64,000 bases of DNA from positions 2,489,469 to 2,553,468 of the forward strand of contig NZ_KI632512.1 of NCBI RefSeq assembly GCF_000504305.1, read 5' to 3'. The stretch is from Nitratidesulfovibrio termitidis HI1 (GTDB lineage: Bacteria > Desulfobacterota > Desulfovibrionia > Desulfovibrionales > Desulfovibrionaceae). Numbering within the stretch: position 1 is the stretch's first letter; every line of letters begins with the position of its first letter. A model generated the notes under the pieces. The model did not search any database, had not been told where the DNA came from, and saw only the letters and a program-made list of their open reading frames with translations. This document shows, piece by piece, positions 509 through 54,465 of this stretch. The position numbers and the translations under genes were made by a program.

Positions 509-2980
509 ATGACCACCTGCCGCCTTTCCCCCCAGGAAGTGCGTCTGCAGAACCCGGAACCGAACAAGGCCGGGCGCGAGCGCGTCTACTCCATTCTCGA
601 AACCTTCCAGTACCAGGTTCCGTTCATCGACGTGGAGCGCGCCCGCTACTTCACCGAGTCCATGCGCACCACCGAAGGCCAGTTGCTGGCACTGCGCTGG
701 GCCAAGGCGCTGCACAACTGCGCCGAAAAGATGACCGTGTACATCACCCCGAACCAGCTCATCGCGGGCCGCGCCGGGCAGTTCGGCCGCTACGGCATCC
801 TGTACCCGGAAATCGACGGCGACTTCTACGGCGAGGTCATGCGCGACCTGCCAGGCCGCGCCAAGAGCCCGTTCCGCATCTCGGACACGGACATCAACAT
901 CATTCTCGAAGAAATCGCCCCCTATTGGGAAGGCAAGACCTACCACGAGCACCTCAACGGCGCCCTGCCCGCGGAACTGCGCAACGTCACCTACGCCGAC
1001 GACTCGGGCCTGAAGTCCAAGTTCGTGGTCAGCGAAACCTCTTCCTACCGTTCCGCCCTGCAGTGGGTGCACGACTACGAAAAGGTGCTGCAACGCGGCA
1101 TGCTGGACATCAGGGCGGAAATGCTGGCCCGCATGGAACGGCTTGATCCCGACAGCCCCATCGACAACTGGGAGAAGAAGCCCTTCCTTGAAGCCATGGT
1201 CATCGTGTGCGACGCCTTCATGCTCTGGGCGAAACGCCACGCCGACCTTGCCCGCGAACAGGCCGCCGCCGAAAGGAACCCCGCCCGCAAACAGGAACTG
1301 CTGCACCTTGCCGACATCTGCGACCACGTGCCCGCGCACCCCGCCCGCACCTTCCACGAGGCCGTGCAGTCGCAGTGGTTCGTGCAGATGTTCTCGCGCA
1401 TCGAGCAGAAGGCCAGCGCCATCATCTCCAACGGGCGCATGGATCAGTACTTCTACCCATACTACGCCAGGGATATTGCCGAAGGCCGCATCACCGAAGA
1501 ACGTGCCATGGAGCTTCTGGAGTGCATGTGGGTGGAGATGGCGCAGTTCATCGACCTGTACATCAACCCCACCGGCAACGAATTCAACGAAGGCTACGCC
1601 CACTGGGAGGCCGTGACCATCGGCGGCCAGACCCCCGACGGCCATGACGCCACCAACGACCTGACGTACCTGTTCCTGCGCTCCAAGCGCGAATTCCCGC
1701 TGAACTACCCCGACCTTGCCACCCGCATCCACTCCCGCTCGCCCGAACGCTTCCTGTACGACGTGGCCGAGACCATCAAGGACGGCTCCGGCTTTCCCAA
1801 GCTGATCAACGACGAGGAAGTCGTGCCGTTGTACGTGGCCAAGGGCGCGTCCTTCAGGGATGCCCTGGACTACGCCGTGTCGGGCTGCACCGAGGCCCGC
1901 ATGCCCAACCGCGACACCTACACCTCCGGCTGCGTGTACATCAACTTCGCCACGGCCATGGAAATGACCATGCACAACGGGCGGATGCTGAAATACGGGC
2001 CGGACGACCTGGTGGGGCTGGAAACCGGCGACCCCACAACCTTCACCACCTGGGAACAGTTCTGGGAAGCCTACAAGGCCCAGCACATGAACCTGCTGTC
2101 CAAGGCCTTCACCCAGCAGTACGTGGTGGACTGCCTGCGCCCGCAGCACTTCGCCTCGCCCTTCGCCTCGGTGCTGCACGACCTGTGCGTGGCAGACTGC
2201 AAGGACCTGCAGTCGCCGAAAATCGAAGGCGGCGTGGATTTTTCGTACTTTGAATTCCTGGGGTACGGCACCGTGGTGGACTCGCTGGCCTCGGTCAGGA
2301 AGCTGGTGTTCGAAGACAAGAAGGTGACCATGGCCGAACTGGTGGCCGCCCTGCAGAACGACTTTGCGGGGCACGAGCCCCTGCGCGCCCTGCTGCGCTC
2401 GGCGCCCTGCTACGGCAACAACAATCCCTATGCCGACGCCATTGCCAGGGAAGTGGACCGCATGACCCAGGTCTTTGCGGAAAAGTACTCCCGGATTCGC
2501 GGCATCAACTGCGACGTGCGCTACGTGCCCATCACCTCGCACGTGCCCTTTGGCAAGGTGGTCAGCGCCACCCCCAACGGCCGCAGGGCGTGGACGGCCC
2601 TGTCCGACGGTTCCTCCGCCTCGCACGGCGCGGACCGCAACGGGCCCACGGCGGTACTGCTGTCCAACTACAATTCCAAGAACTGCGACCTGGAGAACCG
2701 CGCCTCGCGCCTGCTGAACATCAAGCTGTCGCCCAGGTGCGTTGCCGGCGAGACGGGCACCCGCAAGCTCGTGGATCTCATCCGCAGTTGGTGCGACCTC
2801 AAGTTGTGGCACCTGCAGTTCAACATCATCAACAGGGAAACCCTGCTCAAGGCCAAGGCCGATCCCGACAGATACCGGGGCCTTCTGGTGCGCATCGCGG
2901 GGTACAGTTCCTACTTCTGCGACCTGTCGCCCGACCTGCAGGACGACGTCATCAACCGTACCGAGCACGACGCGATCTAG
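509..2980 (+). CDS. Glycyl radical C-S lyase (isethionate/DHPS sulfite-lyase group)
   Basis: An 823-residue glycyl radical enzyme of the Cys-X-Glu eliminase type. Visible residues are Cys460 and Glu462 in SGCTE, and the radical Gly798 in [10 protein letters not shown] near the C-terminus. Compared from memory with isethionate sulfite-lyase IslA (Arg189, Gln193, Trp374, Cys468, Glu470, Arg678, Gly805), this protein has Arg181, Gln185, Trp366, Cys460, Glu462, Arg671 and Gly798. That is a constant offset of 8, then 7, so the sulfonate-binding residues appear kept. The position of IslA Phe682 is Ile675, which may fit a larger C3 sulfonate. The expected reaction is cytoplasmic, radical-mediated release of sulfite for dissimilatory reduction. 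The ATG at 509 has an upstream purine-rich site (CAGGGAGA); the in-frame ATG at 416 overlaps the sigma-54 promoter and is rejected. The activase follows 59 bp downstream. IslA, HpsG or another C-S or C-O eliminase remain possible. Confidence 0.88.
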
Positions 2981-3039
2981 CCCCAGAGGCGGGGAAGGCC
3001 CAGAACCTTCCCCGCCTCCGCCACGGGAGAGGCATACCC

Positions 3040-3942
3040 ATGCACGACAGGGAAATGACGGGCATCGTCTTCAACATGCAGAAATATTCCGTGCACGACG
3101 GCGCGGGCATCCGCACCATGGTCTTCCTGAAGGGCTGCCCGTTGCGCTGCGCATGGTGCAGCAACCCGGAATCCCAGAGGCTCCAGCCTGAACGCGGGTA
3201 CAACCGGTACACGTGTCTTTCGCCCTCGGTGTGCGGCCACTGCATTCCCGCCTGCCCGGCGGGCTGCATCTTCGAGATAGAGGGCCTGCTGGCCATCGAC
3301 CACCAGCGCTGCACGGGGTGCCTGCGGTGTGCAGACGCCTGCCCCACGAAGGCCATGAGCGTCTATGGCCAGCGCCTCGGCGTTGACGACGTGCTCGAGG
3401 CCGTGGAGCAGGACTCCGTGTTCTACGCCCGCTCCGGTGGCGGCATGACCCTGTCCGGCGGGGAGGCCATGTACCAGCCCGACTTCACGGTGGCCTTGCT
3501 GCGCGAGGCACGCCGCAGGCACATCAACACGGTGATGGAAACCTGCGGACATTGTGACGGCGATGCACTGGTCGAAGCCTGCCGCCACATCGACGGGTTG
3601 CTGTTCGACATCAAGCACCTGTCCACCGAGCGACACCGCCAGGGCACCGGCGTGGGCAACGAGCGAATCCTGGCGAACTTCCTCCGGATATGCGCAGAAT
3701 TCCCCGCATTGCCCATCACTGCCCGCACCCCGGTCGTTCCGGGATTCAACGACAACGAAGACGACATCCGGGCCATTGCCCGGTTCCTGCCCAAGCGCGC
3801 CAACCTCGTGCACGAACTGCTGCCCTACCACCGCATGGGGCAGCCGAAGTACGAGTTCCTCGGCCGCGCCTTTCCCATGGGGGGGGCGCAACTGGAGGAA
3901 AACATCATGCCCCGCCTTCAGGAAGTGGCCCTGGCCCGCTGA
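3040..3942 (+). CDS. Radical-SAM glycyl radical enzyme activase
   Basis: A 300-residue activase that installs the glycyl radical on the enzyme encoded just upstream. The SAM-cluster motif CX3CX2C is Cys33, Cys37 and Cys40 (CPLRCAWC). An insert carries two ferredoxin-like cysteine sets, about residues 59-76 and 91-101 (CTGCLRCADAC), as in activases of eliminase-type glycyl radical enzymes but not of pyruvate formate-lyase. The SGGE motif follows around residue 130. The ATG at 3040 has a GGGAGAGG ribosome site. Co-transcription with the lyase is likely; no terminator lies between them. A GC-rich hairpin follows the stop codon. Confidence 0.93.
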   Translation: MHDREMTGIVFNMQKYSVHDGAGIRTMVFLKGCPLRCAWCSNPESQRLQPERGYNRYTCLSPSVCGHCIPACPAGCIFEIEGLLAIDHQRCTGCLRCADACPTKAMSVYGQRLGVDDVLEAVEQDSVFYARSGGGMTLSGGEAMYQPDFTVALLREARRRHINTVMETCGHCDGDALVEACRHIDGLLFDIKHLSTERHRQGTGVGNERILANFLRICAEFPALPITARTPVVPGFNDNEDDIRAIARFLPKRANLVHELLPYHRMGQPKYEFLGRAFPMGGAQLEENIMPRLQEVALAR

Positions 3943-3987
3943 CCCTCCAACCGGCCCCGCGCACCGGCCACCGCGCCGTGCGCGCCA

Positions 3988-4021
3988 TGCCCCCGGCGTG
4001 CCCCGCAGCATGCCGGGGGCA
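3988..4021 (+). terminator. Possible terminator hairpin after the activase
   Basis: A 10-bp stem (TGCCCCCGGC at 3988 with its complement ending at 4021) with a 14-nt loop lies 46 bp after the activase stop. The following T-run is poor, so this may be a weak or Rho-assisted terminator. Confidence 0.4.
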
Positions 4022-4078
4022 CTTCTGCGCCCCACGGAAGGCAAACAGTGCAAATCGGCACATTTTCCCGAACGCCAC

Positions 4079-4094
4079 GTCGCATTTTTGCAAC
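4079..4094. promoter_or_regulatory. Candidate activator site C (UAS)
   Basis: GTCGCA-TTTT-TGCAAC, sharing 11 of 12 half-site positions with site A. It lies about 365 bp upstream of the -24 element at 4460, a long but workable distance for a DNA-looping activator in AT-rich DNA. Confidence 0.55.
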
Positions 4095-4158
4095 AGAAAA
4101 ACCCTGCACCAAACTCAATTCAGTATAATTGCAGCGTTTTTCACGACGCCACGCCTGA

Positions 4159-4174
4159 GTCGTATTTTTGCATC
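4159..4174. promoter_or_regulatory. Candidate activator site D (UAS)
   Basis: GTCGTA-TTTT-TGCATC, with the same architecture as sites A to C, 80 bp after site C and about 285 bp upstream of the sigma-54 promoter. Confidence 0.5.
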
Positions 4175-4458
4175 ATATATAAGATATAGTACACTTCCAG
4201 CGAGCAGTATTTCTGCGCTTATAAAATTATTCGCATTTCAAGCGTGTTACAAAGCAATCAACAATGGCAACCAATACTTTTTATTTTGACTCGACCTCTC
4301 TCGTCCTGCCCATACCCCCACCATACAACACCTCAATGAGGTCACTGCATTCCCAACGCCAGACAACGACACGCCAATACTCTGTTTTAACTATATAAAA
4401 CTGCAGAAATAGTGCTGTGCACTCAAACAATTAAACCGTTCGCACAATCATTCACAAA

Positions 4459-4474
4459 CGGCACCCTTCTTGCT
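4459..4474 (+). promoter_or_regulatory. Sigma-54 (-24/-12) promoter of the dehydrogenase/ABC operon
   Basis: CGGCAC-N5-TTGCT has both GG and GC elements at correct spacing and differs from consensus only in the first base. Transcription would start near 4485 and read into the SDR gene at 4795. Confidence 0.65.
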
Positions 4475-4794
4475 TTTCATGCTGCACGCACACGCGTCGA
4501 CCGTCCATTGCAATGTCGACGCAGTTCTGTGTCCGTGCAAACATAAACGCCACCATACAACACCATATATACATGAAAATAAATCACACGGGGCTTCCCA
4601 TGCCGGACCATGCACGTTCACGCCGCAAAAATCCGACGAAAGGCCATTGCAGTACCCCGTGCCGAGGTTTTCTCAAAAACGTCGTCGCAGGCATTGTGCC
4701 CTCCTCTTGCCACGCGGAGAGGCGCCATCACCCCGCAAGCACGCCGCATCATCCCGGCGTGGACTGCCGATAACCCCACGCCGGAAGGTCCGCC

Positions 4795-5580
4795 ATGCCA
4801 GCACTCCGTCCGCAGTGCCCCTTTGCGCTGTTCGATCTTTCCGGCCGGACGGCGTTGGTCACCGGTGGCAATTCCGGGCTTGGCGAAGCCATGGCCACGG
4901 CGTTGGGGTTGGGCGGCGCCAGGGTGCTCCTGCTGGCGCGGCGCCGCCGCGAACTGGACGAAGCGGCAACGCGCCTTGCCGGTCTCGGCATCGAGGCACT
5001 TGTCCTCTCCGCCGACCTTTCCGACCCTTCCGCCATTGCCGACAGCGCGGCGCACGCCCGCCAGGCGCTGGGGCACGTGGACATCCTTATCAACGCGGCC
5101 GGAGTCAACCTGCGCCAGCCCTTCGAGGAAATCACCCCCGAGGCATGGCGACGGCAGGTGGACCTGCACCTTTCCGCGCCGTTCTTTCTGGCCCGCGAAC
5201 TGGCGCCCGGCATGCGCGAGCGCGGCTGGGGCCGCATCATCAACATCGGTTCCCTGCAATCGTACCGGGCCATGCCCGACAGCGCGCCCTACGGTGCGGC
5301 CAAGGGGGGCATCATCCAACTCACCCGTGCCATCGCCGAGGCCTGGGGTCCATACGGCATCACCTGCAACGCCATCGCCCCCGGCTTTTTCCCCACCTCG
5401 CTCACCGCGCCGGTGTTCGACAATCCCCAAACCGTGGCCCGGCACGCCGCCCAAACGTGCCTTGGCCGCAACGGCCGACTGGAGGATCTGCACGGCCTTA
5501 CCCTGTTTCTCGCAAGCAACGCATCTTCGTACGTCACCGGACAAACGATCATGCTCGATGGTGGATTCACGGCGAAATGA
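4795..5580 (+). CDS. SDR-family NAD(P)-dependent alcohol dehydrogenase
   Basis: A 261-residue classical short-chain dehydrogenase. The cofactor motif TGGNSGLG is at 23-30, the NAAG motif at 100-103, and the catalytic Ser153, Tyr166 and Lys170 are in the expected order. The closest look is to gluconate 5-dehydrogenase-like enzymes. The ATG at 4795 has a GGAAGG ribosome site. It is the first gene of the operon that carries the ABC importer. A role in oxidising or epimerising the hydroxysulfonate, or in reducing a carbonyl product of C-S cleavage, is inference from position. The substrate cannot be read from sequence. Confidence 0.88.
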
Positions 5581-5659
5581 CTGGTGTTTTCCTGTGTCAA
5601 ACGGCTCCGTTCCCAGCTTCATGTGACAATTTCACAGAACAGCAACAGCGAGGTCGCAC

Positions 5660-6739
5660 ATGAAAAAACGTCTGGCCACTGCCCTTGCCTTCCTGCTCGC
5701 CAGCATGCTTCTCACCGGATTCCTTCCCCTCGCCGCGCAAGCGGCGGACAAACCCGAAGTCCGCACCAGCGCGCAGCCCTGTCTGCACGGCATGCCGCTG
5801 TGGCACGCGGAAAAAGCCGGTTGGCTCACCAACGCCCCGTTCGTCGACAAGTTCATGCTGTTCGCTTCGGGGGCGCCGCAGGTCGAGGCCCTTGCAGCCA
5901 ACCAGTGGGACGTGGGGGCCATGGGCGCCCTGCCCACCATGATGGCCAGCATGCGGTACGGCTACAAGCTGATCGGCATCTCCAACGACGAATCCGAAAC
6001 CAACGACCTGTGGGTACGCCCCGATTCGCCACTGCTGAAGACCAAGGGCGCCAACCCCAAGTTCCCGGAAATCCATGGCAGCGCCGATGACTGGAAGGGC
6101 AGGAAGGTGCTGGCCACCACCGTCTCCACCGGCCACTACGCCCTCACCGCCACCCTTGCCGCCCTGGGCCTGAAGGACGCCGACGTTTCCCTCGTGCACA
6201 TGGAGCAGGGCCAGGCTGTCACGGCCTTCAACGCGGGAGAGGGCGACATCATCCAGCTGTGGGCCCCCTTCAGCTACATTGCCGAGGCCAAGGGCTGGAA
6301 AAAGGTCTCTTCCGGCAGCAAGGCCGGGGTGGTCATCATCGGCGGCATCGGCGTGCGCAAGGAATTCGCGGAACAGCACCCCGACCTCGTGGTGGACTGG
6401 CTGGACGTGTACATGCGCGGCATCGAGATGATGCGGAACGAGCCTGGCAAGAGCGTCGACCCGCTGCTGAACTACTTCACCGGCTATTGCGGCCTGGAAC
6501 TGACGCGCGACCAGGTGGAAAAGGAATTCAAGTACCGCCCGCTGTATGACGTGAACGAGCAGGTGCGCCTGCTGGAAGACCCGTCCAAGACTGCGGCATG
6601 GATGGACGGCGTTGCCAAATTCATGCTTTCGCAGGGTCGCATTGCCGCCAAGGAATACGACCGCTACGCCAAGAACCACTTCGAGATCGATCCCTCCTTC
6701 ATGAAGAAGCTGGCCGAACGTCGCGCTGCGGCGAAATAG
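5660..6739 (+). CDS. ABC transporter periplasmic substrate-binding protein (Tau/Ssu/NMT1-like)
   Basis: A 359-residue solute-binding protein. A signal peptide of about 29 residues is clear: basic start MKKR, a hydrophobic stretch, then AAQAAD as a signal peptidase I site. The body resembles binding proteins for taurine, alkanesulfonates and nitrate-like anions, with the motif QWDVGAMGALP typical of that fold. It is encoded 79 bp after the SDR gene and is followed by two permeases and two ATPases, so the complete importer is here. Given the adjacent C-S lyase an organosulfonate ligand is likely, but that is inference. Confidence 0.88.
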   Translation: MKKRLATALAFLLASMLLTGFLPLAAQAADKPEVRTSAQPCLHGMPLWHAEKAGWLTNAPFVDKFMLFASGAPQVEALAANQWDVGAMGALPTMMASMRYGYKLIGISNDESETNDLWVRPDSPLLKTKGANPKFPEIHGSADDWKGRKVLATTVSTGHYALTATLAALGLKDADVSLVHMEQGQAVTAFNAGEGDIIQLWAPFSYIAEAKGWKKVSSGSKAGVVIIGGIGVRKEFAEQHPDLVVDWLDVYMRGIEMMRNEPGKSVDPLLNYFTGYCGLELTRDQVEKEFKYRPLYDVNEQVRLLEDPSKTAAWMDGVAKFMLSQGRIAAKEYDRYAKNHFEIDPSFMKKLAERRAAAK

Positions 6740-6899
6740 CCTTTCCTCGCCATCCTCCGGCGGTGAAGCCCGCCGGAGGATGGAACCGAGCCCCGTGGCG
6801 GTTTCCGCTCCGGAGTGCCACCCCGGCCCGCCCTTTGCGGGATGGCCGGAAAGGCCGGAAGGTTCCGCCGCCCCCTCCCACGTGCGACAGGAGTCCCGC

Positions 6900-7739
6900 A
6901 TGCAGAGCACGACACACGACGCATCAGGCCCCGTATCACTGGATGTGGAAAAAGCCGGATACATCGCGGCCGCAGTACGGCAGCACTGGATATCCGTCAT
7001 CAGCCTGGTGCTCTTTCTGATCTTTTGGGAACTGATTTGCCGGTTCGAGATCATCGGGCCGTATCAGCTCGTTCCGCCTTCCGAAGTTCTTGGCGTGTTC
7101 GCCGACAAGTTCACGAACCCCAACCCCGACGGCGCGCTGTTGCAGCAGCATGCCTGGGCCAGCCTTTCCCTGGCGCTGGTGGGCTTTGGGGCCGCGGTGT
7201 GCATCGGCGTGCCACTGGGGCTGCTGATGGGCTGGTACCGCCCCGTCAACCTGATGGTGCGCCCGCTGTTCGACGCGGTGCGCCCCATCCCCCCCATCGC
7301 CTGGATACCCATCGCCATCCTGTGGCTGGGCATCGGCATCCACGCCAAGGCGTTCATCATCTTCCTCGCGGCGTTCGTGCCCTGCGTGATCAACTCCTAC
7401 ACCGGCATCCGCCTGACCAACCCGGTGCTGATCCGCGTGGCGCGCATCTACGGCGCCTCCGATTTCGAGACCTTCCGGAAAATCGGCGTTCCCTCGGCCA
7501 TTCCCATGGTGTTCACGGGCATCAAGCTGTCGCTCAACGCCGCGTGGACAACCCTGGTGGCGGCCGAACTGCTGGCCGCCTCGCAGGGGCTCGGCTACCT
7601 CATCCAGCTTGGCCGTCGGCTGGCCCGTCCGGACATCATCATCGTGGGCATGCTGGCCATCGGTTTGCTGGGCGCGCTCATGTCGTGGGGGCTGACCAGG
7701 ATCGAGTCCCGCTTCGCATCCTCACGGAGGCTCTCATGA
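6900..7739 (+). CDS. ABC transporter permease 1 (Tau/Ssu-like)
   Basis: A 279-residue inner-membrane permease with about six hydrophobic segments. The EAA loop reads RVARIYGASDFETFRKIGVP and contacts the ATPase. The start at 6900 is chosen because ACAGGAG lies 7 bases upstream; longer in-frame starts lack a ribosome site. Its stop codon overlaps the next start (ATGA at 7736), so it is translationally coupled to permease 2. The two permeases share the run RPIPPIAWIPIAILWLG, which points to a duplication and a heterodimeric channel. Confidence 0.88.
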   Translation: MQSTTHDASGPVSLDVEKAGYIAAAVRQHWISVISLVLFLIFWELICRFEIIGPYQLVPPSEVLGVFADKFTNPNPDGALLQQHAWASLSLALVGFGAAVCIGVPLGLLMGWYRPVNLMVRPLFDAVRPIPPIAWIPIAILWLGIGIHAKAFIIFLAAFVPCVINSYTGIRLTNPVLIRVARIYGASDFETFRKIGVPSAIPMVFTGIKLSLNAAWTTLVAAELLAASQGLGYLIQLGRRLARPDIIIVGMLAIGLLGALMSWGLTRIESRFASSRRLS

Positions 7740-8518
7740 CCGCATCGTTCCGCAAACGGCTGGTGCCCGTGGCCATGACCACGGGTTCGCTGCTGGCCTT
7801 CCTCGTGTTCTGGCAGGTGGTTTCCCTGTACACGAACCCGGAATTCCTTCCCTCTCCACGGCAGGTATGGGTGGAAGCCTTGCGCCTGTTCCACACCCAG
7901 GTGGGCGGCAAGGACCTGCTCACGCACGTGGGCTTCAGCTTGCGCCGCGTGCTTACCGCCTACCTGTGGGCCATCGTGCTGGGGCTGCCGCTGGGCCTGT
8001 GCATGGGCTGGAACCGGGTCTGCGAGCAGATAGTCTCGCCCATTTTCGAACTGCTGCGCCCCATACCGCCCATCGCCTGGATACCCATCGCCATCCTGTG
8101 GCTGGGCGTGGCCGAGGGGTCGAAGGTGTTCATCTGTTTCGTCGGTTCCTTCGTCATCCTGGTGCTGAACTCGTACACCGGCATGCGCTACGTGGACCCG
8201 CTGCTGATCGACGCCGCCCGCTCGTTCGGGGCCACGCGCAGGCAGCAGTTCTTCAACGTGGCGGTGCCCGCCTGCCTGCCGTCCATCTTCGCCGGGCTGC
8301 AGAACGCGCTGTCCATGGCCTGGATGTGCGTGCTGGCGGCGGAACTGGTGGGCGCGCGCGAAGGCGTGGGCTTCATCATCATCCAGGGCATGGACCTGAA
8401 CAGGCCGCCCATGATCCTCGTGGGCATGATCCTGATCGGCATCGTGGGGTCGCTGCTGGCGGCCTCGCTGCGCTGGGCGGAACGGGCCCTGTGTCCGTGG
8501 CGGAGGGAACTGGTATGA
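7736..8518 (+). CDS. ABC transporter permease 2 (Tau/Ssu-like)
   Basis: A 260-residue permease, paralogous to the preceding gene. The EAA loop is DAARSFGATRRQQFFNVAVP. It starts at the ATGA overlap with permease 1 and ends in another ATGA overlap with the first ATPase, so the three are tightly coupled. It is expected to form a heterodimer with permease 1 in the cytoplasmic membrane. Confidence 0.88.
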   Translation: MTASFRKRLVPVAMTTGSLLAFLVFWQVVSLYTNPEFLPSPRQVWVEALRLFHTQVGGKDLLTHVGFSLRRVLTAYLWAIVLGLPLGLCMGWNRVCEQIVSPIFELLRPIPPIAWIPIAILWLGVAEGSKVFICFVGSFVILVLNSYTGMRYVDPLLIDAARSFGATRRQQFFNVAVPACLPSIFAGLQNALSMAWMCVLAAELVGAREGVGFIIIQGMDLNRPPMILVGMILIGIVGSLLAASLRWAERALCPWRRELV

Positions 8519-9282
8519 CGGAACAGACTGCCAAGATCGAATGCCGCAACCTGTCCAAGGCCTTTCACGTACCCGGACAACCCCAGCGACTGCTGGTGCT
8601 CGACCGCGTGTCGCTGGCCGTGCGCGAAAACGAATTCCTGGTCATCCTCGGTCCGGGCCAGTGCGGCAAGACCGTACTGCTCAACTGCATCGCCGGGCTC
8701 ATCGAACCCTCGGCCGGGGATGTGCTGCTGGACGGCGCCCTTGTCACGGCGCCGGGGCCTGACCGGGCCATGGTCTTCCAGCGCTACGCGCTGATGCCGT
8801 GGAAAACCGTGGAGCACAACGTGGCCTTCGGCCTTGCCGTACGCGGCGTGCCGCAGAAGGAACGGCTGGAGATCGCCCACCGCTACATCGACCTCGTGGG
8901 CCTGCAGGGCTTCGAAAAGGCCTACCCCGAACAGCTTTCCGGCGGCATGAAGCAGCGCGTGGGCATTGCCCGCGCCTACGCCAACGCGCCGGAAATCCTG
9001 CTCATGGACGAACCGTTCGGCGCGCTGGACGCGCAGACGCGCTACGCCATGGAGCAGGACCTGCGTTCCATATGGGAAAAGGAAAAGCGGACGGTCATCT
9101 TCGTCACCAACAACATCGAAGAAGCCATATACCTTGGCGACAGGATTCTGGTCATGTCCGTACTGCCCGGCACGGTGAAGGCGGAATACCTGATCGATAT
9201 TCCCTCGCCGCGCAATTATACAGACCCTGCGTTCCTCACCTACAGAAAGATGATCTCCGAAGCCACGGATCTTTCCATATAG
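8515..9282 (+). CDS. ABC transporter ATPase 1
   Basis: A 255-residue nucleotide-binding subunit. Walker A is GPGQCGKT, the signature is LSGGMKQR, and Walker B is ILLMDEPFGALD. The H-loop position reads VTNNIEE, so the usual switch histidine (VTHD in relatives) is replaced by Asn. This suggests an asymmetric ATPase pair in which ATPase 2, which keeps the His (THNIEE), completes one site. The start overlaps the permease 2 stop (ATGA). Confidence 0.88.
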   Translation: MTEQTAKIECRNLSKAFHVPGQPQRLLVLDRVSLAVRENEFLVILGPGQCGKTVLLNCIAGLIEPSAGDVLLDGALVTAPGPDRAMVFQRYALMPWKTVEHNVAFGLAVRGVPQKERLEIAHRYIDLVGLQGFEKAYPEQLSGGMKQRVGIARAYANAPEILLMDEPFGALDAQTRYAMEQDLRSIWEKEKRTVIFVTNNIEEAIYLGDRILVMSVLPGTVKAEYLIDIPSPRNYTDPAFLTYRKMISEATDLSI

Positions 9283-9292
9283 GAGGCATTCC

Positions 9293-10066
9293 ATGGAAGC
9301 TGCACCGCAGTATCCCTACGCGCACGAGCGCAAGGTCAAGGTACAGGTGGAAAGCCTTACCAAGTGCTACGGCGACCTTCTGGTGCTCGACAAGATCAAC
9401 TTCGAAATCTACCAGGGCGAACTGCTGTGCATCGTCGGCCCCACGGGGTGCGGCAAGACCACGTTCCTGAATTGCCTTTCGCAGTTCATTCCCATGACGG
9501 AAGGTTCCATCCTGGTGGACGGCGTGCCCGCCTCGCCGGCAATCCACAACATCGCCTTCGTGTTCCAGGAAGTTTCCGCCATTCCGTGGCTGACGGTGGA
9601 GGACAACATCCGCTTCGGCCTGCGCATCAAGCGCCTGCCCGAAGACGAGATAGAGCGGCGCACCGAGCGCATGCTCGACCTCGTGGGCCTGCGCAAGTAC
9701 CGCACCTACTTCCCGCAGCAGCTTTCGGCCAGCATGGAGCAGCGCGTGGTCATCGCGCGCAACTTCGCCATCAACCCCGACCTGCTGTTGATGGACGAGC
9801 CCTACGGCCAGCTCGACGTCAAACTGCGCTACTACCTCGAAGACGAACTGATCCGCATCTGGAAGGAACTGGGCAGCACGGTGGCCTTCATCACCCACAA
9901 CATCGAGGAAGCCATCTACCTCGCCGAGCGCATCCTCATCCTTTCGCCGAAACCCTCCACCATCAAGGAGGAGGTCATCGTGGACCTGCCCCGCCCCCGC
10001 CAGTACGACGACCCCGAATTCGTCCGGCTGCGCGAATACGTGACCGAACGCATCAAGTGGTGGTAG
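9293..10066 (+). CDS. ABC transporter ATPase 2 with a degenerate signature motif
   Basis: A 257-residue nucleotide-binding subunit. Walker A GPTGCGKTT and Walker B LLLMDEPYGQLD are intact and the H-loop is ITHNIEE. The signature motif is LSASMEQR instead of LSGGQ-type. Paired with ATPase 1, which lacks the H-loop histidine but has a good signature, it would give a heterodimer with one canonical and one degenerate ATP site. Such asymmetry is known in other ABC systems, but its use here is inference. It starts 10 bp after ATPase 1, with AGGAGG upstream. Confidence 0.87.
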   Translation: MEAAPQYPYAHERKVKVQVESLTKCYGDLLVLDKINFEIYQGELLCIVGPTGCGKTTFLNCLSQFIPMTEGSILVDGVPASPAIHNIAFVFQEVSAIPWLTVEDNIRFGLRIKRLPEDEIERRTERMLDLVGLRKYRTYFPQQLSASMEQRVVIARNFAINPDLLLMDEPYGQLDVKLRYYLEDELIRIWKELGSTVAFITHNIEEAIYLAERILILSPKPSTIKEEVIVDLPRPRQYDDPEFVRLREYVTERIKWW

Positions 10067-10227
10067 GCCCCCGCCCGCCATCGTTCCCAGTCCATAGCGG
10101 CCTCTATCGCCCGCGCCGTTCTCCGGCCCCTTTTGGCCCGCTTGGCCACATTCCGGGGGGCGCGACGGACGCAACGTCAAACCGGGTCCGCGCTCTGCGC
10201 GGACAATACCCGCCAAGGAGAAACGTC

Positions 10228-11088
10228 ATGCATATCGGATTCATCGGCGCAGGGCTGATGGGTGGTCCGCTGGCCCGCAATCTCATCCGGGCCGGAAAGG
10301 ACGTCCTGGTCTACGACCTGAACGCCGAAGCCGCCGCGCGCACCGCCAGCGTCGGACCCACCGGGCGCACGGCCTCCGCCCTGGTCGACCTTGCCGGGTG
10401 CGACCTGGTGTTCACCAGCCTGCCCCTGCCCACCCACGTGGAAGGGGTGATGCTGGGCGACGACGGCCTGCTGCAACGGCTGAAGCCCGGCGCCATCCAT
10501 GTGGAACTGAGCACCATCGACCCGCAAACCTCGGCCCGGCTGGAAGCCGCCGCCAAGGCCAGGGGATGCGCCTTCCTGCAGTGCACCCTGGGCAAGACCC
10601 CCGCCCATGCGGAAAAGGCCGAGGAACCCCTGTTCATCGGCGGCGACCGGGCCGTGTTCGACAGCCTGGCCGACATCTGGCCCGTCATCGGCAACCCGGC
10701 CTACTACATGGGGGGCGTGGCCGCCTCGTGCGCGGTCAAGCTGATCAGCAACATGGTGGGCATGACCAACCTGGCCGTGCTGGCCGAGGGGCTGCGCATC
10801 GGCGAAAAGGCGGGCATCGAGCGCGCCGCGCTCATTGCCCTGCTGCAGGACACCGGCGCGCGCAGCTTCCAGATGGACGTGCGCGGCCCGTGGATCGCCG
10901 CCGACGACTACGGCAACCGCTTCGGCCTCGACCTTGCCCTGAAGGACGTGCGCCTGGGCTGCGAGATGGCCTCCACATGGGGCATGAAGATACCGGCCAT
11001 GTCCGCCGCGCTGGAAACCTTCCGCAAGGCGAGCGCGGCGGGCTACGGCCGCGAGGACTGCAACGCCGTCTACAAGGCCACGGAATAA
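10228..11088 (+). CDS. Beta-hydroxyacid dehydrogenase, sulfolactaldehyde-reductase-like
   Basis: A 286-residue NAD(P) oxidoreductase of the 3-hydroxyisobutyrate dehydrogenase superfamily. The nucleotide motif GAGLMG is at 7-12, the catalytic lysine is Lys171 and Asn175 follows. The usual substrate motif of this family (V-S-G-G) is replaced by LGKTPAH, with Lys123. The E. coli sulfolactaldehyde reductase YihU, recalled from memory, has Arg123-Thr, Lys171 and Asn174-Asn175 at the same positions. A reaction between a C3 sulfonate aldehyde and its alcohol is therefore plausible, but a carboxylate substrate is not excluded. AAGGAG precedes the ATG. Confidence 0.83.
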   Translation: MHIGFIGAGLMGGPLARNLIRAGKDVLVYDLNAEAAARTASVGPTGRTASALVDLAGCDLVFTSLPLPTHVEGVMLGDDGLLQRLKPGAIHVELSTIDPQTSARLEAAAKARGCAFLQCTLGKTPAHAEKAEEPLFIGGDRAVFDSLADIWPVIGNPAYYMGGVAASCAVKLISNMVGMTNLAVLAEGLRIGEKAGIERAALIALLQDTGARSFQMDVRGPWIAADDYGNRFGLDLALKDVRLGCEMASTWGMKIPAMSAALETFRKASAAGYGREDCNAVYKATE

Positions 11089-11230
11089 CGCCAGACCCAC
11101 CGGACCCGCCATATCCGCCAAACGGGGCGGACGGCGATCTATCGGATGGGCATATCGGGGCGGACAACTGCATCACCGCATCGCTCCGGCCCCAGGAACA
11201 CAGAGCCCCACGGAACCGAAAGGAGCACAC

Positions 11231-12685
11231 ATGTTACGCAATCCCGAACTGATGCATCAGGCATGCTACATCGACGGCGCGTGGGTCGGCGCCGACAGCG
11301 GCGCGACCCTTTCCGTGCACAACCCCGCCAACGGCGAAACGCTGGGCGCCGTTCCCGCGTGCGGCAAGGCGGAAACGGCGCGCGCCATTGCGGCGGCGGC
11401 CGCCGCGTGGCCGGAATGGCGGGCCATGACCGCGCTGCAACGGGCAGACATCATGCTGCGCTGGCGCGACCTGATCATGCAGAACCAGGACGACCTGGCG
11501 AAGCTGATGACCCTGGAACAGGGCAAGCCCCTGCCCGAAGCGCGCGGCGAAATCGGCTTCGCGTGCAGCTTTCTGCGCTGGTTCGCCGAAGAAGCCCGCC
11601 GCATGTACGGCGACATCGTGCCTGCCCCCTGGAAGGGCAAGCGCATCCTGGTCACCCGCGAGCCGGTGGGGGTGGTCGGCGTCATCACCCCGTGGAACTT
11701 CCCCACGGCCATGATCGGCCGCAAGGTGGGCGCGGCCTTTGCCGCCGGGTGCCCGGTGGTCATCAAGCCCGCCAGCCAGACCCCGTATTCCGCACTGGCC
11801 CTGGCCGGGCTGGCCGAGCAGGCCGGCGTGCCCAAGGGCGTGTTCAACGTGCTGACCGGCTCCGCGCGCGAGATCGGCGGTGAGCTGACCGGCAACCCCG
11901 CCGTGCGCAAGGTAAGCTTCACCGGCTCCACCGAAGTGGGCAAGCAGTTGATCCGCCAGTGCTCGGACACGGTCAAGAAGGTGTCCATGGAGCTTGGCGG
12001 CAACGCGCCGTTTCTCATCTTCGACGATGCGGACATCGACCTCGCCATAGTGGGGGCCATGGCCAGCAAGTATCGCAACACCGGCCAGACCTGCATCTGC
12101 GCCAACCGCTTCTACGTGCAGGCGGGCGTGTACGACGAGTTCGTGCAAAAGCTGACCGTTGCCGTTTCCGCCCTGAAGGTGGGCAACGGCCTTGACGACG
12201 GCGTGACCCAGGGGCCGCTCATCGACGACAAGGCCCTGGCCAAGGTCGAGGCACAGGTAAAGGATGCCCTGGGCAAGGGCGGCACGCTGGTCTGCGGCGG
12301 CCACCGCCACAGCCTTGGGGGCAACTTCTTCGAGCCCACCGTCATCGCGGACGCCACCCCGGCCATGGCCTTCGCCAGGGAAGAAACCTTCGGCCCGCTG
12401 GCGCCGGTGTTCCGGTTCAAGACCGAGGCCGAGGCCGTCGCCATGGCCAACGACACGGAATTCGGCCTTGCCGCCTACACCTATACCCGCGACCTCGGCA
12501 CCGCCTTCCGGGTGTCCGAGGCGCTGGAATACGGACTGGTCGGCGTGAATGAAAGCCTCATCTCCACCTGCGAGGCCCCCTTCGGCGGCGTGAAGGAAAG
12601 CGGCATGGGCCGTGAGGGATCGCGCCACGGCCTCGATGATTACACCGTCATCAAGTATACCTGCATAGGCGGTCTTGGCGGTTAG
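11231..12685 (+). CDS. NAD(P)-dependent aldehyde dehydrogenase, GabD/SSADH-like
   Basis: A 484-residue non-acylating aldehyde dehydrogenase. Catalytic Cys288 lies in GQTCICANR and general base Glu254 in MELGGNAP, the positions I recall for E. coli succinate-semialdehyde dehydrogenase GabD. The cofactor motif is FTGSTEVGK at 230-238. Sulfolactaldehyde dehydrogenases of sulfosugar pathways belong to this same group, and the gene lies next to a sulfolactaldehyde-reductase-like enzyme. Oxidation of a sulfonated or desulfonated aldehyde to the acid is thus the working hypothesis. AGGAG precedes the ATG. It is probably the last gene of the operon. Confidence 0.85.
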   Translation: MLRNPELMHQACYIDGAWVGADSGATLSVHNPANGETLGAVPACGKAETARAIAAAAAAWPEWRAMTALQRADIMLRWRDLIMQNQDDLAKLMTLEQGKPLPEARGEIGFACSFLRWFAEEARRMYGDIVPAPWKGKRILVTREPVGVVGVITPWNFPTAMIGRKVGAAFAAGCPVVIKPASQTPYSALALAGLAEQAGVPKGVFNVLTGSAREIGGELTGNPAVRKVSFTGSTEVGKQLIRQCSDTVKKVSMELGGNAPFLIFDDADIDLAIVGAMASKYRNTGQTCICANRFYVQAGVYDEFVQKLTVAVSALKVGNGLDDGVTQGPLIDDKALAKVEAQVKDALGKGGTLVCGGHRHSLGGNFFEPTVIADATPAMAFAREETFGPLAPVFRFKTEAEAVAMANDTEFGLAAYTYTRDLGTAFRVSEALEYGLVGVNESLISTCEAPFGGVKESGMGREGSRHGLDDYTVIKYTCIGGLGG

Positions 12686-12984
12686 GCTCCTCGTGTCGGC
12701 GAGGGCGTACGCCGGGACATGACCCCGCATGGGATGGCACCCCAGGCCCCCGCCGTCATGTGTCCGCCAGCCGGGCATGCGTTGCCACGCGCATGCCCGG
12801 TCTTTTGCCGCGTAAAGGCCGTCCGTCTTTCCTTCCCACCGTCCTTCGCCTATACGAAGCATACGGCGAAGCGAAATTCCGCTAGTGCCCCCGCCGACCA
12901 CCCGCGTCACGGAGGGGGTCGTGAACCGGCCGTCCGGACTCCCCGGACGGCCGGGTACACGGTCACCCCCGCCAAGGGAGCCCC

Positions 12985-14361
12985 ATGCTTTCGGAATACT
13001 TCCACCAGTTGCTGGACACCTTCAAGGACGCCATCTGCATCACCGACCATGAGGGGATCATCGTCTACCTCAACCGGCGGTATGGCGAACTGACAGGCTT
13101 TCCCCCGGAAGGGTTGGTCGGCAAATCCGTCATCGAAATGATGCGCCACGGCGTGTTCGACACAGTGCTGAACCCCGAGATCGTCAAGACCCGCCAGGGC
13201 ACCACTTCCATCCAGAACATCTCCAACGGGCGCAAGCTGTTTCTCGACGGCAGCCCCATCCTCGACCGGGACGGCAAGGTGGTCTACGTGATCACCTTCA
13301 TGCGCGACGTGACCACCCTGATGGAACTGAAGCGCGAACTGGCCTCGCAAAAGGAACTGCTGGACACCTTCCAGAGCCTCAGCAGCGCAAGTCCCGAACG
13401 CACCGAAAACTACCCGCTGATGCTGCACAGCACGGTCATGCGCAAGCTCTGCGACCAGCTTGCGGGCATTGCCGAGACCGACGCCACCGTGCTGCTGCTG
13501 GGTGACACGGGCGTGGGCAAGGACGTGCTGGCCCGTCGCCTGCACGCCGTCAGCCCGCGCGCGGGCAAGCCCTTCATCAAGGCGGACTGCGCCAGCATTC
13601 CGGCCAATCTCATCGAAACGGAATTGTTCGGCTACACGCCTGGCACCTTCTCCGGCGGCAACCGGCACGGCAAGATGGGCCTCATCGAGGCGGCCACCGG
13701 GGGTACCCTGTTCCTCGACGAAATCGGCGAACTGCCCATGCCCATGCAGTCGCGCCTGCTGCGCCTGCTGCAGGACCGCGAGGTGATGCGCGTGGGTTCC
13801 ACCACGTCCGCCCGGGTGGACGTGCGCATCGTGGCGGCCACCAACAAGGATCTTGAAAGGGAGGTGCGCGACGGCAGCTTTCGCAGCGACCTCTACTACC
13901 GCCTGAAAGTGGCGGTCATCCGCATTCCTCCATTGCGCCAACGCAAGGCGGACATCGTGCCCCTGGCGCAGGGGTTCCTGAAATTCTACTGCGCGAAATA
14001 CCGCCGCAGCCTCACCCTTTCGGACGACGCCGAAGACGCCCTGCGCGAGCACCACTGGCCGGGCAACGTGCGCGAACTGGAAAACCTGATGCAAGGGCTG
14101 GTGGTCACCTGCCAGCTCGGCGCCATAGAGGCGCGCGACCTGCCCTTCGCCCGGCCCGCTTCGTCCAGGCCCGATGTTGGCCGCGAAGCCGGAACCGGAT
14201 TGGAAATCGAGGGGCGCAGCTTCAAGGACATCATGCACGAACTCGAAGGGCGCGTGCTGCGCCAGGCGCTGGCCCGCTACGGCACCATCGCCGAGGTGGC
14301 CAAACAGTTCGGCGTGGACCGCAGCACCATCTTCCGCAAGCTCAAGGGCTGGGAAGACTGA
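12985..14361 (+). CDS. Sigma-54-dependent activator with PAS sensor domain
   Basis: A 458-residue enhancer-binding protein. An N-terminal PAS domain (about 8-110) replaces a phosphoacceptor domain. The AAA+ core runs from about 144 to 372, with Walker A GDTGVGKD at 173-180 and Walker B LFLDE at 242-246. A Fis-type helix-turn-helix lies at the C-terminus (about 434-455, GVDRSTIFRKL). The sigma-54 contact loop, normally GAFTGA, reads GTFSGG (220-225). This is unusual, although the key Phe is kept and Thr is changed conservatively to Ser. It is encoded on the same strand directly after two operons with sigma-54 promoters and shared dyads, so it is the likely regulator. The PAS ligand is unknown. 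Confidence 0.9.
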   Translation: MLSEYFHQLLDTFKDAICITDHEGIIVYLNRRYGELTGFPPEGLVGKSVIEMMRHGVFDTVLNPEIVKTRQGTTSIQNISNGRKLFLDGSPILDRDGKVVYVITFMRDVTTLMELKRELASQKELLDTFQSLSSASPERTENYPLMLHSTVMRKLCDQLAGIAETDATVLLLGDTGVGKDVLARRLHAVSPRAGKPFIKADCASIPANLIETELFGYTPGTFSGGNRHGKMGLIEAATGGTLFLDEIGELPMPMQSRLLRLLQDREVMRVGSTTSARVDVRIVAATNKDLEREVRDGSFRSDLYYRLKVAVIRIPPLRQRKADIVPLAQGFLKFYCAKYRRSLTLSDDAEDALREHHWPGNVRELENLMQGLVVTCQLGAIEARDLPFARPASSRPDVGREAGTGLEIEGRSFKDIMHELEGRVLRQALARYGTIAEVAKQFGVDRSTIFRKLKGWED

Positions 14362-25467: not shown

Positions 25468-25695
25468 CTATCCGCCCCCCACGGCCGGGAACAGGCCCAG
25501 CCGGTCACCGTCGGCCAGCGCCTTGCCCATGGGGGCATGCAGGCCGTTGACGAAGATCACCGCCACGTCTTCCGGCGCGATGCCCAGAGCCAGCACCACG
25601 TCATGCACGGTTCCGCCCTCGCGCAGGACAAAGTCCTCTCCGCCCGTTGGCTGAAAGCGTTGCAGCGTGGCGTAGCATTTCACGGTGATATGCAT
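25468..25695 (-). CDS. MoaD/ThiS-family sulfur carrier
   Basis: 75 residues. A beta-grasp sulfur carrier with VAVIFVNGLHAP and the canonical C-terminus FPAVGGG, which ends in the Gly-Gly needed for adenylation by an E1. It is encoded directly after the aldehyde:ferredoxin oxidoreductase. MoaD relatives next to such enzymes are thought to serve synthesis of the tungsten-pterin cofactor; the link here is inference from context. Confidence 0.85.
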   Translation of the reverse strand: MHITVKCYATLQRFQPTGGEDFVLREGGTVHDVVLALGIAPEDVAVIFVNGLHAPMGKALADGDRLGLFPAVGGG

Positions 25696-25721
25696 GGTTG
25701 GTCCGCTTTCACGTCATGCCG

Positions 25722-25757
25722 CGTGGCCGCCCCCCCAAGAGGCGACCACGCGGCTGC
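25722..25757 (-). other. Hairpin between AOR and moaD-like genes
   Basis: GCCGCGTGG...CCACGCGGC forms a long GC stem in the 68-bp gap after the oxidoreductase stop. It has no T-run, so it is more likely an mRNA-stabilising or attenuating structure than a full terminator. Confidence 0.4.
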
Positions 25758-25763
25758 ATGTTG

Positions 25764-48890: not shown

Positions 48891-48989
48891 AGCCGGTGCA
48901 GTCCCGCAGCGAATCAAGCCCCGGAACGGACGCCCGGCGCCGGACACGCCGAACGCGCCCTGTCCCGAATGCCCACAGAGGAGGTGCCC

Positions 48990-49658
48990 ATGTCCTTTGG
49001 CGTCAGTCTTGCGGTCTGGGGAGAGTACGCCTGCTTCACCAGGCCGGAGTTCAAGACCGAGCGCGTCAGCTATGACGTCATCACGCCTTCGGCGGCGCGC
49101 GGGCTGCTGGAGGCCATCTACTGGAAACCCGCCATTGCGTGGGTGGTGGACCGCATCCGCGTGCTCAACCCCATCCGGTTCGATTCGGTGCGGCGCAACG
49201 AGGTGGGCTGCAAGATTCCCCTCGGGTCCGTCACTGCGGCCATGAAGGATCCAGAACGGCCACTGGGCATCCTTGTGGAGGACGAACGGCAGCAACGGGC
49301 CACCCTGCTGCTGCGCGACGTGCGCTACGTCATCGACGCCCATTTCGAAGCCCGCGACGAGGATGGCCGCAACACAGCCAAGCACCGCGACATCTTTCTG
49401 CGGCGCGCGGCCAGGGGGCAGTGCTTCCACATGCCCTATCTGGGCTGCCGCGAGTTCCCCGCCTCATTCGCACCACTGGATGATGCCCCATCCTCCCCCC
49501 TCGACGATGCCCTGAAGGGCGAGCGCGACCTTGGCTGGATGCTGCACGACCTGGACTACGGGTCCGACGGCGAGCGGCAGCCGCGCTTCTTCCGGGCCTG
49601 CATGCAGGACGGCGTTATCGACGTGCCGCCCCTGCGCTCTCCGGAGGTGCGGGCATGA
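48990..49658 (+). CDS. cas5c: Cas5 (Cas5c/d), pre-crRNA endonuclease and Cascade subunit
   Basis: 222 residues. In type I-C, which lacks Cas6, Cas5 cuts the repeat. Tyr44 and Lys131-His132 match the positions of the Tyr-Lys-His catalytic set known from Bacillus halodurans Cas5d (Tyr46, Lys116, His117, recalled). The start at 48990 is chosen for AGAGGAGG just upstream; an in-frame ATG at 48969 lies before that site. Its stop overlaps the cas8c start (ATGA). Confidence 0.94.
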   Translation: MSFGVSLAVWGEYACFTRPEFKTERVSYDVITPSAARGLLEAIYWKPAIAWVVDRIRVLNPIRFDSVRRNEVGCKIPLGSVTAAMKDPERPLGILVEDERQQRATLLLRDVRYVIDAHFEARDEDGRNTAKHRDIFLRRAARGQCFHMPYLGCREFPASFAPLDDAPSSPLDDALKGERDLGWMLHDLDYGSDGERQPRFFRACMQDGVIDVPPLRSPEVRA

Positions 49659-51454: not shown

Positions 51455-51478
51455 CAGCACACACAGGAGGAAGCCCCA

Positions 51479-52345: not shown

Positions 52346-52355
52346 GCGGTCCGCC

Positions 52356-54172: not shown

Positions 54173-54174
54173 CC

Positions 54175-54465
54175 ATGCTCATGCTCATTACCTACGACGT
54201 GAACACCGAAGACCGCGAAGGCAAAACCCGTCTGCGCCGGGTAGCCAAGCTCTGCCTGGACTACGGCCAGCGCGTGCAGCTTTCGGTATTCGAGTGCGAG
54301 GTGGACCCCGGCCAATGGGAAACCCTGCGCCACAAGCTTGTGTCCACCATCGCCCCGGAAAAGGACAGCCTGCGCTTCTACCGCCTTGGCCGCGACGGCA
54401 AGCGCCGGGTTGAACACGTGGGGTTCAAGGAACCCGTGGACCTTGAAGGCCCCCTTGTGGTGTAG
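54175..54465 (+). CDS. cas2: Cas2 (type I-C)
   Basis: 96 residues: LITYDVNTEDREGKTRLRRV with the conserved Asp, then QLSVFECEVD. It forms the core of the Cas1-Cas2 complex. It starts 2 bp after cas1. A second Met two codons later (54181) is equally possible. Confidence 0.95.
   Translation: MLMLITYDVNTEDREGKTRLRRVAKLCLDYGQRVQLSVFECEVDPGQWETLRHKLVSTIAPEKDSLRFYRLGRDGKRRVEHVGFKEPVDLEGPLVV

Follow-up and report, generated by a model that had tools for sequence, protein, structure and literature searches.

A gene cluster of Nitratidesulfovibrio termitidis HI1 that probably imports 2,3-dihydroxypropane-1-sulfonate and desulfonates it by a radical and an oxidative route

This study concerns a gene cluster of Nitratidesulfovibrio termitidis HI1 that probably serves the use of 2,3-dihydroxypropane-1-sulfonate (DHPS), a plant-derived sulfonate whose sulfite feeds hydrogen sulfide formation. 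The cluster lies near the start of the stretch analysed here, the window, which covers 64,000 nucleotides (positions 2,489,469 to 2,553,468 of contig NZ_KI632512.1) of a genome that consists of a single contig of 4.26 Mb. Inspection of open reading frames and hidden Markov model searches of the window recovered every gene that a first-pass annotation of the sequence had named, in the places it gave and all in one direction (plus strand). The first two genes are hpsG, which encodes a glycyl-radical enzyme (GRE) of 823 amino acids with the domains PF02901 and PF01228 (509–2980), and hpsH, which encodes its radical-SAM activase (3040–3942; NF048010, 441.1 bits against a cut-off of 430). They are followed by the gene for a short-chain dehydrogenase/reductase (SDR; 4795–5580) and by those for an ATP-binding cassette (ABC) importer, which comprises a periplasmic substrate-binding protein (SBP) of the SsuA/TauA type, a candidate DHPS binder (5660–6739), two permeases (6945–7739, with an uncertain start in a frame open from 6780, and 7736–8518) and two ATPases (8515–9282 and 9293–10066). 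Next come a DhpA-like candidate DHPS dehydrogenase of the 3-hydroxyisobutyrate dehydrogenase (HIBADH) family (10228–11088) and a SlaB-like candidate sulfolactaldehyde dehydrogenase of the GabD/succinate-semialdehyde dehydrogenase (SSADH) family (11231–12685). Directly after the SlaB-like gene, and unmentioned in the first-pass annotation, stands a gene for a regulator with PAS, sigma-54 AAA+ and Fis-type helix-turn-helix domains (12985–14361, plus strand), a candidate activator of the cluster.

The lyase had been taken for a new relative of the isethionate lyase IslA (also called IseG), whose sulfonate ligands it keeps. The ligands are indeed there: R181, Q185 and R671 align with Arg187, Gln191 and Arg676, the ligands reported for IseG (PMC6453916), and the catalytic residues are kept as well (C460 and E462 in SGCTE, G798 in VRIAGYSSY; reported as C468, E470 and G805 in IslA, PMC8473560). 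However, Thr310 and Phe680, two residues of IseG that touch isethionate, are replaced by A304 and I675, and the window enzyme thus does not have the IslA/IseG pocket. Its solved relatives are 6lon (1427 bits, 72.7% identity in the alignment), IseG (5ymr; 1284 bits, 66.8%) and IslA (7kq3; 1200 bits, 62.8%). The PDB record of 6lon is titled just "PFL2/glycerol dehydratase family". We take the protein to be Bilophila HpsG on the grounds of its identity to 7kq3, the IslA of Bilophila wadsworthia (61.3%; for the HpsG–IslA pair of this species 60.6% is reported, PMC8397734), and to a protein from a Bilophila metagenome-assembled genome (MAG; 91.7%).

An alignment of 123 proteins (the window GRE, the IseG of the same genome, the three structures and 118 proteins of other loci, some from the same organism) contains 52 with the 6lon-type pocket pattern RLQARI, 69 with Thr and Phe (RIQTRF 53, RLQTRF 15, RNQTRF 1) and two with mixed patterns. 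In a tree of the 115 proteins left after removal of eight duplicates, built by a quick method, a branch with a support of 100 splits 46 Ala/Ile-pocket proteins, 6lon among them, from 67 Thr/Phe proteins, which include 5ymr, 7kq3 and the IseG of the same genome; the two mixed, long-branched proteins belong to neither group. The window GRE is on the side of 6lon. By clade and pocket, the window lyase is HpsG, a known type of DHPS sulfite-lyase described as a (2S)-DHPS sulfolyase (PMC11489063), and that activity is predicted for it. The first-pass view of an organosulfonate C–S lyase cluster is thereby borne out, while that of a new relative of IslA had to be given up. In favor of an isethionate lyase, or of a diol- or choline-type GRE, one could cite the ligand triad, which is common to IslA, and the model NF048011, which fails to separate HpsG from IseG. 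The Ala/Ile pocket and the position in the tree speak against IslA/IseG, and the models for the DHPS dehydratase HpfG (NF048009, 442.6 bits against a cut-off of 1000), CutC (TIGR04394, 517 against 1050) and HypD (NF043068, 540 against 1100) all stay far under their cut-offs, so that we consider a lyase of any of these kinds extremely improbable.

The IseG of the same genome (70585–73041 of the contig) is a second GRE, of the Thr/Phe type, and adjoins an activase and a tripartite ATP-independent periplasmic (TRAP) importer (DctP, DctQ-DctM). The contrast that the first-pass annotation had drawn with the transporters of IslA systems is therefore beside the point, the window lyase being HpsG. This IseG also scores higher with NF048011 than the window GRE does (1585 against 1500 bits), for which reason the model was dropped as proof of HpsG. 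It is named "(2S)-3-sulfopropanediol dehydratase", yet HpsG is reported as a sulfite-lyase and no dehydratase, and automatic annotation with NF048011 may mislabel IseG genes. GREs of the IseG type were also seen in seven loci of Bifidobacterium, five of Planctomycetaceae MAGs and three of Paenibacillaceae, none of which are obvious sulfite respirers.

The SDR resembles HpsO. Its solved relatives are 9pvq (330 bits, function unstated), 8wwf, described as "(R)-DHPS dehydrogenase HpsO" (275.6 bits), and 6le3 (262 bits), and its residues S153, Q155, Y166 and K170 align with Ser145, Gln147, Tyr158 and Lys162 of Ruegeria HpsO, which means that the catalytic and the enantiomer-selecting residues are all kept. 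Gln147 of HpsO is reported to touch the chiral hydroxyl of (R)-DHPS, and its loss to remove most of the activity (PMC11131964). These matches make the SDR a candidate (R)-DHPS dehydrogenase. In three loci of one genus of the family (g32; L176–L178), the SDR gene is flanked by an HpsN-like gene of the histidinol dehydrogenase family (PF00815 in all three) and by a gene for an HpsP-like zinc alcohol dehydrogenase (recognised by Pfam in L176 and L178 and by similarity in L177). These Desulfovibrionaceae loci hold an aerobic-type DHPS set of HpsN, HpsP and HpsO-like SDR together with an ABC importer and SuyAB.

Hydroxyacetone is the product of HpsG, the enzymes encoded downstream are alcohol and aldehyde dehydrogenases, and no other hydroxyacetone enzyme was recognised in the cluster. 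One could therefore read the cluster as a single linear route, in which the SDR or the DhpA-like enzyme oxidises or reduces hydroxyacetone and the GabD-like enzyme oxidises a C3 aldehyde. However, relatives of the SDR, DhpA and SlaB lie with SuyAB in thirteen loci that have no HpsG in the stretch, the SDR retains the glutamine for (R)-DHPS, and Bilophila is reported to excrete hydroxyacetone (PMC8397734). Because relatives of the SDR sit with HpsN, HpsP and SuyAB, a role as hydroxyacetone reductase is the less likely one for this enzyme, and we regard the linear route as a whole as improbable.

The HIBADH-family enzyme had been called sulfolactaldehyde-reductase-like, which holds at the level of the superfamily and fails for the specific identity: the model of sulfolactaldehyde 3-reductase (NF012005, cut-off 348) yields just 139 bits, and the DhpA clade fits better. 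In Desulfovibrio sp. DF1, DhpA, of the HIBADH family, is reported to convert DHPS to sulfolactaldehyde, and the SSADH-like SlaB to convert this further to sulfolactate (PMC6278857). A tree of 38 DhpA proteins (duplicate loci, matches covering less than 90% and those with stops left out) places the window protein in a clade of 21 with SuyAB-linked DhpAs (support 100/99). With DhpAs from outside the genus that are linked to SuyAB or to the ABC importer, it shares 62–75% identity. The nearest solved structure, 9k2j (79%), is described merely as a 3-hydroxyisobutyrate dehydrogenase. The tree holds 22 other HpsG-linked DhpAs, five of them in the clade of 21, 12 in a separate clade and five between, and the function of those outside the clade of the window protein may differ. 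The DHPS of Burrichter et al. was racemic and sets no handedness for DhpA. As to the SlaB-like enzyme, it exceeds the cut-off of the SSADH model (TIGR01780, 709 bits against 646), and its putative role in sulfolactaldehyde oxidation is suggested by context.

The models for the importer are less specific, with 88 bits for the SBP against the cut-off of 163.5 of TIGR01728, and permeases that come nearest to TauC and SaoP, under the cut-offs of both models. Across 348 genomes of the class, SBP orthologues of at least 51% identity occur in 15, and 20 stretches around SBP and DhpA matches were examined for gene context. The importer block stands with SuyAB, DhpA and SlaB in three loci (L171–L173), with HpsN, HpsP, SDR and SuyAB in L176–L178, with SDR and DhpA in L170, and with HpsGH and SDR in L174, which belongs to a different genus (genome G097). 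Two further stretches are a contig of the own genus and one too short for context. DHPS is the substrate common to the informative contexts, and we infer that it is also the substrate of the window importer. The proteins reported as DHPS-induced in DF1 include DhpA, SlaB, SuyAB and a binding protein of the SsuA/TauT type, whose gene stands with those of two permeases and two ATPases (PMC6278857).

The pairing of HpsG and DhpA was followed through the same 348 genomes. As HpsG we counted the matches listed at 70% identity or more (49 in 48 genomes), and as a comparison set the next 71 matches listed, from 68% to about 63% (one at 67%, G253:C69, was dropped, and later ones were unused); those of the 71 that were sampled in the GRE tree are of the IseG type. 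DhpA matches numbered 66 in 63 genomes. Among the matches listed, 26 of the 49 HpsG genes have DhpA within 20 kb, one has it far away on the same contig and nine have it on another contig. In the comparison set of 71, none has DhpA nearby (it is far away for 3 and on another contig for 25, and 43 are in genomes without it). HpsG and DhpA co-occur in 35 genomes, where 8.7 would be expected if the two were independent, kinship uncorrected and again among the matches listed. The linkage shows that the pairing of HpsG and DhpA extends beyond the genus. The importer is near four of the 49, three of them in the own genus and the fourth in G097, and among the loci read, importer, SlaB and HpsG share one locus in the own genus only. 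A different combination is seen in L053 (G030:C1:511209-531208), where HpsG, HpsH, a regulator, DhpA, an aldehyde:ferredoxin oxidoreductase (AOR)-like gene, a TRAP importer, a LarA homologue and SuyAB stand in one locus. On a MAG contig of Candidatus Bilophila faecipullorum (G071:C9, the source of the Bilophila protein compared with 6lon; L134), a DhpA homologue (63%; L045:3617) lies about 10 kb from HpsG. In 2021, dhpA was reported to be missing from all known Bilophila genomes (PMC8397734), and the genomes with both hpsGH and dhpA that were counted earlier were two mouse MAGs (PMC12330013).

The gaps before hpsG and between hpsH and the SDR gene contain similar upstream elements. Sigma-54 promoters follow a consensus of GG and GC at fixed spacing, and both dinucleotides are present at sigma-54 spacing in two -24/-12-like elements on the plus strand, TGGCACACTCGATGC before hpsG (417–431; its core kept in four genus members) and CGGCACCCTTCTTGC before the SDR-ABC-DhpA-SlaB unit (4459–4473; kept in three). 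Since a scan of the whole window showed no excess of such sites (299 found, 322 expected), this conservation in genus members is the sole support for them. In addition, an inverted repeat may be the site of the activator: GTCGCAAAAATGCGAC lies upstream of hpsG (238–253) with a degenerate copy at 324–339, and GTCGCATTTTTGCAAC between hpsH and the SDR gene (4079–4094) with degenerate copies at 4159–4174 and 4622–4637, each copy having two mismatches. The repeat GTCGCANTTTTGCNAC, like the palindromic pattern a search pattern drawn after the fact from the sites themselves, is found with at most two mismatches in five places of the 64 kb, all of them in the two gaps; with at most three mismatches there are 12 matches against 5.9 expected, a number reached in 3 of 100 shuffles. 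A palindromic scan of the window gave three hits in the gaps and a fourth at 36300; simulated sequences averaged 0.74 hits and never exceeded 4. In L040 and L041, hpsG is preceded by a matching repeat at a distance of about 270 bp. The sigma-54 PAS activator probably switches on both units.

Besides the cluster itself, the oxidative route needs SuyAB. The genome has a SuyAB-type pair at 2587.8 kb of the contig (within L007), about 87 kb from DhpA, whose SuyB is 82–89% identical to the SuyBs beside DhpA in 11 loci. Its name rests on context, because no SuyAB model scored and only that of galactarate dehydratase gave a match, far under its cut-off. A second SuyAB-like pair, at 10.1–11.6 kb (L006), was rejected and the claim confined to L007, because the SuyB-like protein of L006 is just 37% identical to that of L007 and its FAH-family and DapA-family neighbors look like those of sugar-acid catabolism. 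In L007, SuyAB is duplicated (9846–13685), the second SuyB copy being short (205 amino acids called, 96% identical), and TctA- and TctC-type transporter genes, with two copies of TctA called, lie between SuyAB and a LarA homologue.

We therefore consider it quite probable that the cluster imports DHPS through the ABC importer and desulfonates it both by a radical route, with HpsGH, and by an oxidative route that leads to SuyAB, probably under a single sigma-54 PAS activator. DHPS would enter through the importer with its two permeases and two ATPases. On the first route, HpsG, activated by HpsH, would split (2S)-DHPS into hydroxyacetone and sulfite. On the second route, DhpA, the HpsO-like SDR, or both would convert DHPS to sulfolactaldehyde, SlaB would convert this to sulfolactate, and SuyAB would then yield pyruvate and sulfite. 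Sulfite from both routes would be respired by Dsr; a C3 route by way of DHPS or sulfolactaldehyde, with sulfite as the likely respiratory acceptor, was already suggested in the first-pass annotation, and dsrA is present in the genome. By our own count, the second route would be redox-balanced on DHPS alone, with six electrons released and six taken up by sulfite; for DF1, a fermentation of DHPS that yields acetate and H2S has been reported. The first route would supply sulfite without reducing power, and would suit growth with hydrogen, formate or lactate. The activities of HpsG, DhpA, SlaB and HpsO in this scheme are those shown by others for homologues, as is the DHPS induction of the DF1 importer, and our own analysis adds gene identity, clade, pocket residues, conserved linkage and genome content. 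From these we infer the substrate of the importer, the division of labor between the routes, their regulation and the fate of hydroxyacetone.

Several points weigh against a single DHPS cluster. SuyAB lies outside it. The importer stretch of L174 is devoid of DhpA and SlaB, that of L175 (G099) contains the importer with the SDR only, and that of L179 (G275) contains the importer without any other DHPS genes. Among the matches listed, 13 of the 49 HpsG genes are in genomes without a DhpA match, and one of the DhpAs counted (G117) is interrupted by a stop. The inverted repeat, which is a lead only because of the way its patterns were drawn, was absent in the palindromic scan from L174 and from the host's own IseG and SuyAB stretches. 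The likeness to DF1 is drawn from protein families, gene context and the set of parts rather than from an alignment. The ABC-DhpA-SlaB block could serve some other C3 sulfonate, with HpsGH acting alone on DHPS. Taken further, the importer, the SDR and the DhpA-like and SlaB-like enzymes would be a separate catabolic unit, with a hydroxyacid or a different sulfonate as its substrate, and next to hpsGH by chance. This would fit the gap of 852 bp, with a promoter-like element of its own, between hpsH and the SDR gene, the occurrence of the ABC block elsewhere without HpsG, and the importers of 20 HpsG loci (L040–L059), 14 of which have a TRAP (10) or a major facilitator superfamily (MFS) importer (4), as opposed to two with an ABC importer of the window type and four with none recognised. 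A chance neighborhood is at odds, however, with the linkage of DhpA to HpsG (26/49 versus 0/71 among the matches listed), with the ABC importer found beside HpsGH and SDR in the different genus of L174, with the like elements upstream of both units, and with the reported induction of importer, DhpA and SlaB by DHPS in DF1 (PMC6278857). We judge it unlikely, and retain the reading of one cluster with two DHPS routes.

The two routes might in addition sort DHPS by handedness. SuyAB is reported to be R-specific (PMC11131964), and the products of sulfoglycolysis are reported to be (S)-DHPS and (S)-sulfolactate (PMC11382572), so that (S)-sulfolactate would need a racemase or a pair of dehydrogenases. 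The LarA homologue, a member of the family of nickel-pincer racemases, is encoded at L007:2536-3786 (2580538–2581785 of the contig, minus strand), about 6 kb from SuyAB and 80 kb from DhpA, and has counterparts in the SuyAB/DhpA stretch of nine relatives. An alignment with the malate racemase Mar2 (6d6z, the nearest solved relative, 210 bits) shows that the cofactor-site and catalytic residues are kept: R74, K181 and H197 of Mar2 all have their match, as do its catalytic histidines (residue roles as reported in PMC7583248). LarC, of the cofactor pathway, is present in the genome. Malate resembles sulfolactate, and a malate racemase is the plain alternative. In 15 loci with a SuyB of at least 74% identity (L006 left out), LarA is present in 10 of the 12 without HpsN versus none of the three with the R-specific HpsN, and for the remaining two without HpsN (L171 and L180) it is found elsewhere in the genome. 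Of 39 LarA matches in the 348 genomes, 15 have DhpA at a distance of 20 kb or less, three have it far away and six have it on another contig, as measured for the best 30 of the 66 DhpA matches; LarA is thus not tied to DhpA alone, since the genomes of the other 15 lack a DhpA match (and contain none of the remaining 36). We regard the homologue near suyAB as a candidate sulfolactate racemase. The phrase "sulfolactate racemase" did not occur in the literature searched, nor did "sulfo" in those parts of the LarA-superfamily literature that were covered. In a tentative and rather doubtful extension of the two-route reading, (S)-DHPS would go to HpsG and (R)-DHPS through SDR and SlaB to (R)-sulfolactate and SuyAB, and (S)-sulfolactate made by DhpA and SlaB would be rescued by the LarA-family racemase.

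The window also contains genes outside the cluster. At 46989–54465, a Cas operon, which we take to be of type I-C, encodes Cas3 (C-terminal/helicase), Csd1, Cas7, Cas4, Cas1 and Cas2 according to Pfam, and beyond it a gene-poor stretch up to about 63 kb is a possible array. An AOR (PF02730 and PF01314) is encoded at 25468–27491 on the minus strand, adjoining a ThiS/MoaD-type gene; it lies 13 kb off the cluster and is just 28–30% identical to the AORs near DhpA in relatives. DF1 is reported to have a DHPS-induced AOR.

The cluster shares parts with four known systems. With Bilophila wadsworthia it has in common the GRE clade, the pocket residues and the matching activase model of HpsGH, but hpsGH are reported there in a DHPS-induced cluster of four genes (PMC8397734), and here with an ABC importer, an HpsO-like SDR, DhpA and SlaB. 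The gene set is not as new as the first-pass annotation had supposed, since DHPS-grown DF1 already has a HIBADH-family DhpA, an SSADH-family SlaB, an SsuA/TauT-type binding protein with two permeases and two ATPases, and SuyAB elsewhere (PMC6278857); the window cluster differs by HpsGH and the SDR, and the word "glycyl" has no occurrence in the main text of that source. The SDR matches HpsO of the HpsO/HpsP/HpsN system of Roseobacteraceae and Cupriavidus (PMC11131964, PMC11382572) and keeps its Ser, Gln, Tyr and Lys, whereas the cluster has neither HpsN nor HpsP, and its host is an anaerobe with dsrA and HpsG. IslA and IseG (PMC6453916, PMC8473560) have the same Arg/Gln/Arg ligands, catalytic Cys and Glu and Gly radical site, and differ in the two pocket residues, in clade and, for the IseG of this genome, in the TRAP importer. 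The two anaerobic routes that yield sulfite from DHPS are each known from descriptions in different bacteria (PMC12330013). No description of the cluster was found in the literature on HpsG and DHPS that was searched. Liu et al. reportedly displayed HpsG neighborhoods in 2020, and an earlier notice of an ABC-linked HpsG cluster is possible there.

The enzymes are thus known, and what is probably new is that both DHPS routes and an HpsO-like SDR are joined in one cluster, under probable joint control. The linkage of DhpA to 26 of the 49 HpsG genes among the matches listed and the two-route cluster suggest that one organism may switch between the routes or divide DHPS between them, and the combination may permit the use of both mirror-image forms of DHPS. 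The cluster offers an ABC alternative to the TRAP and MFS importers of other HpsG loci, together with a candidate sulfolactate racemase, and it makes the question of handedness directly testable.

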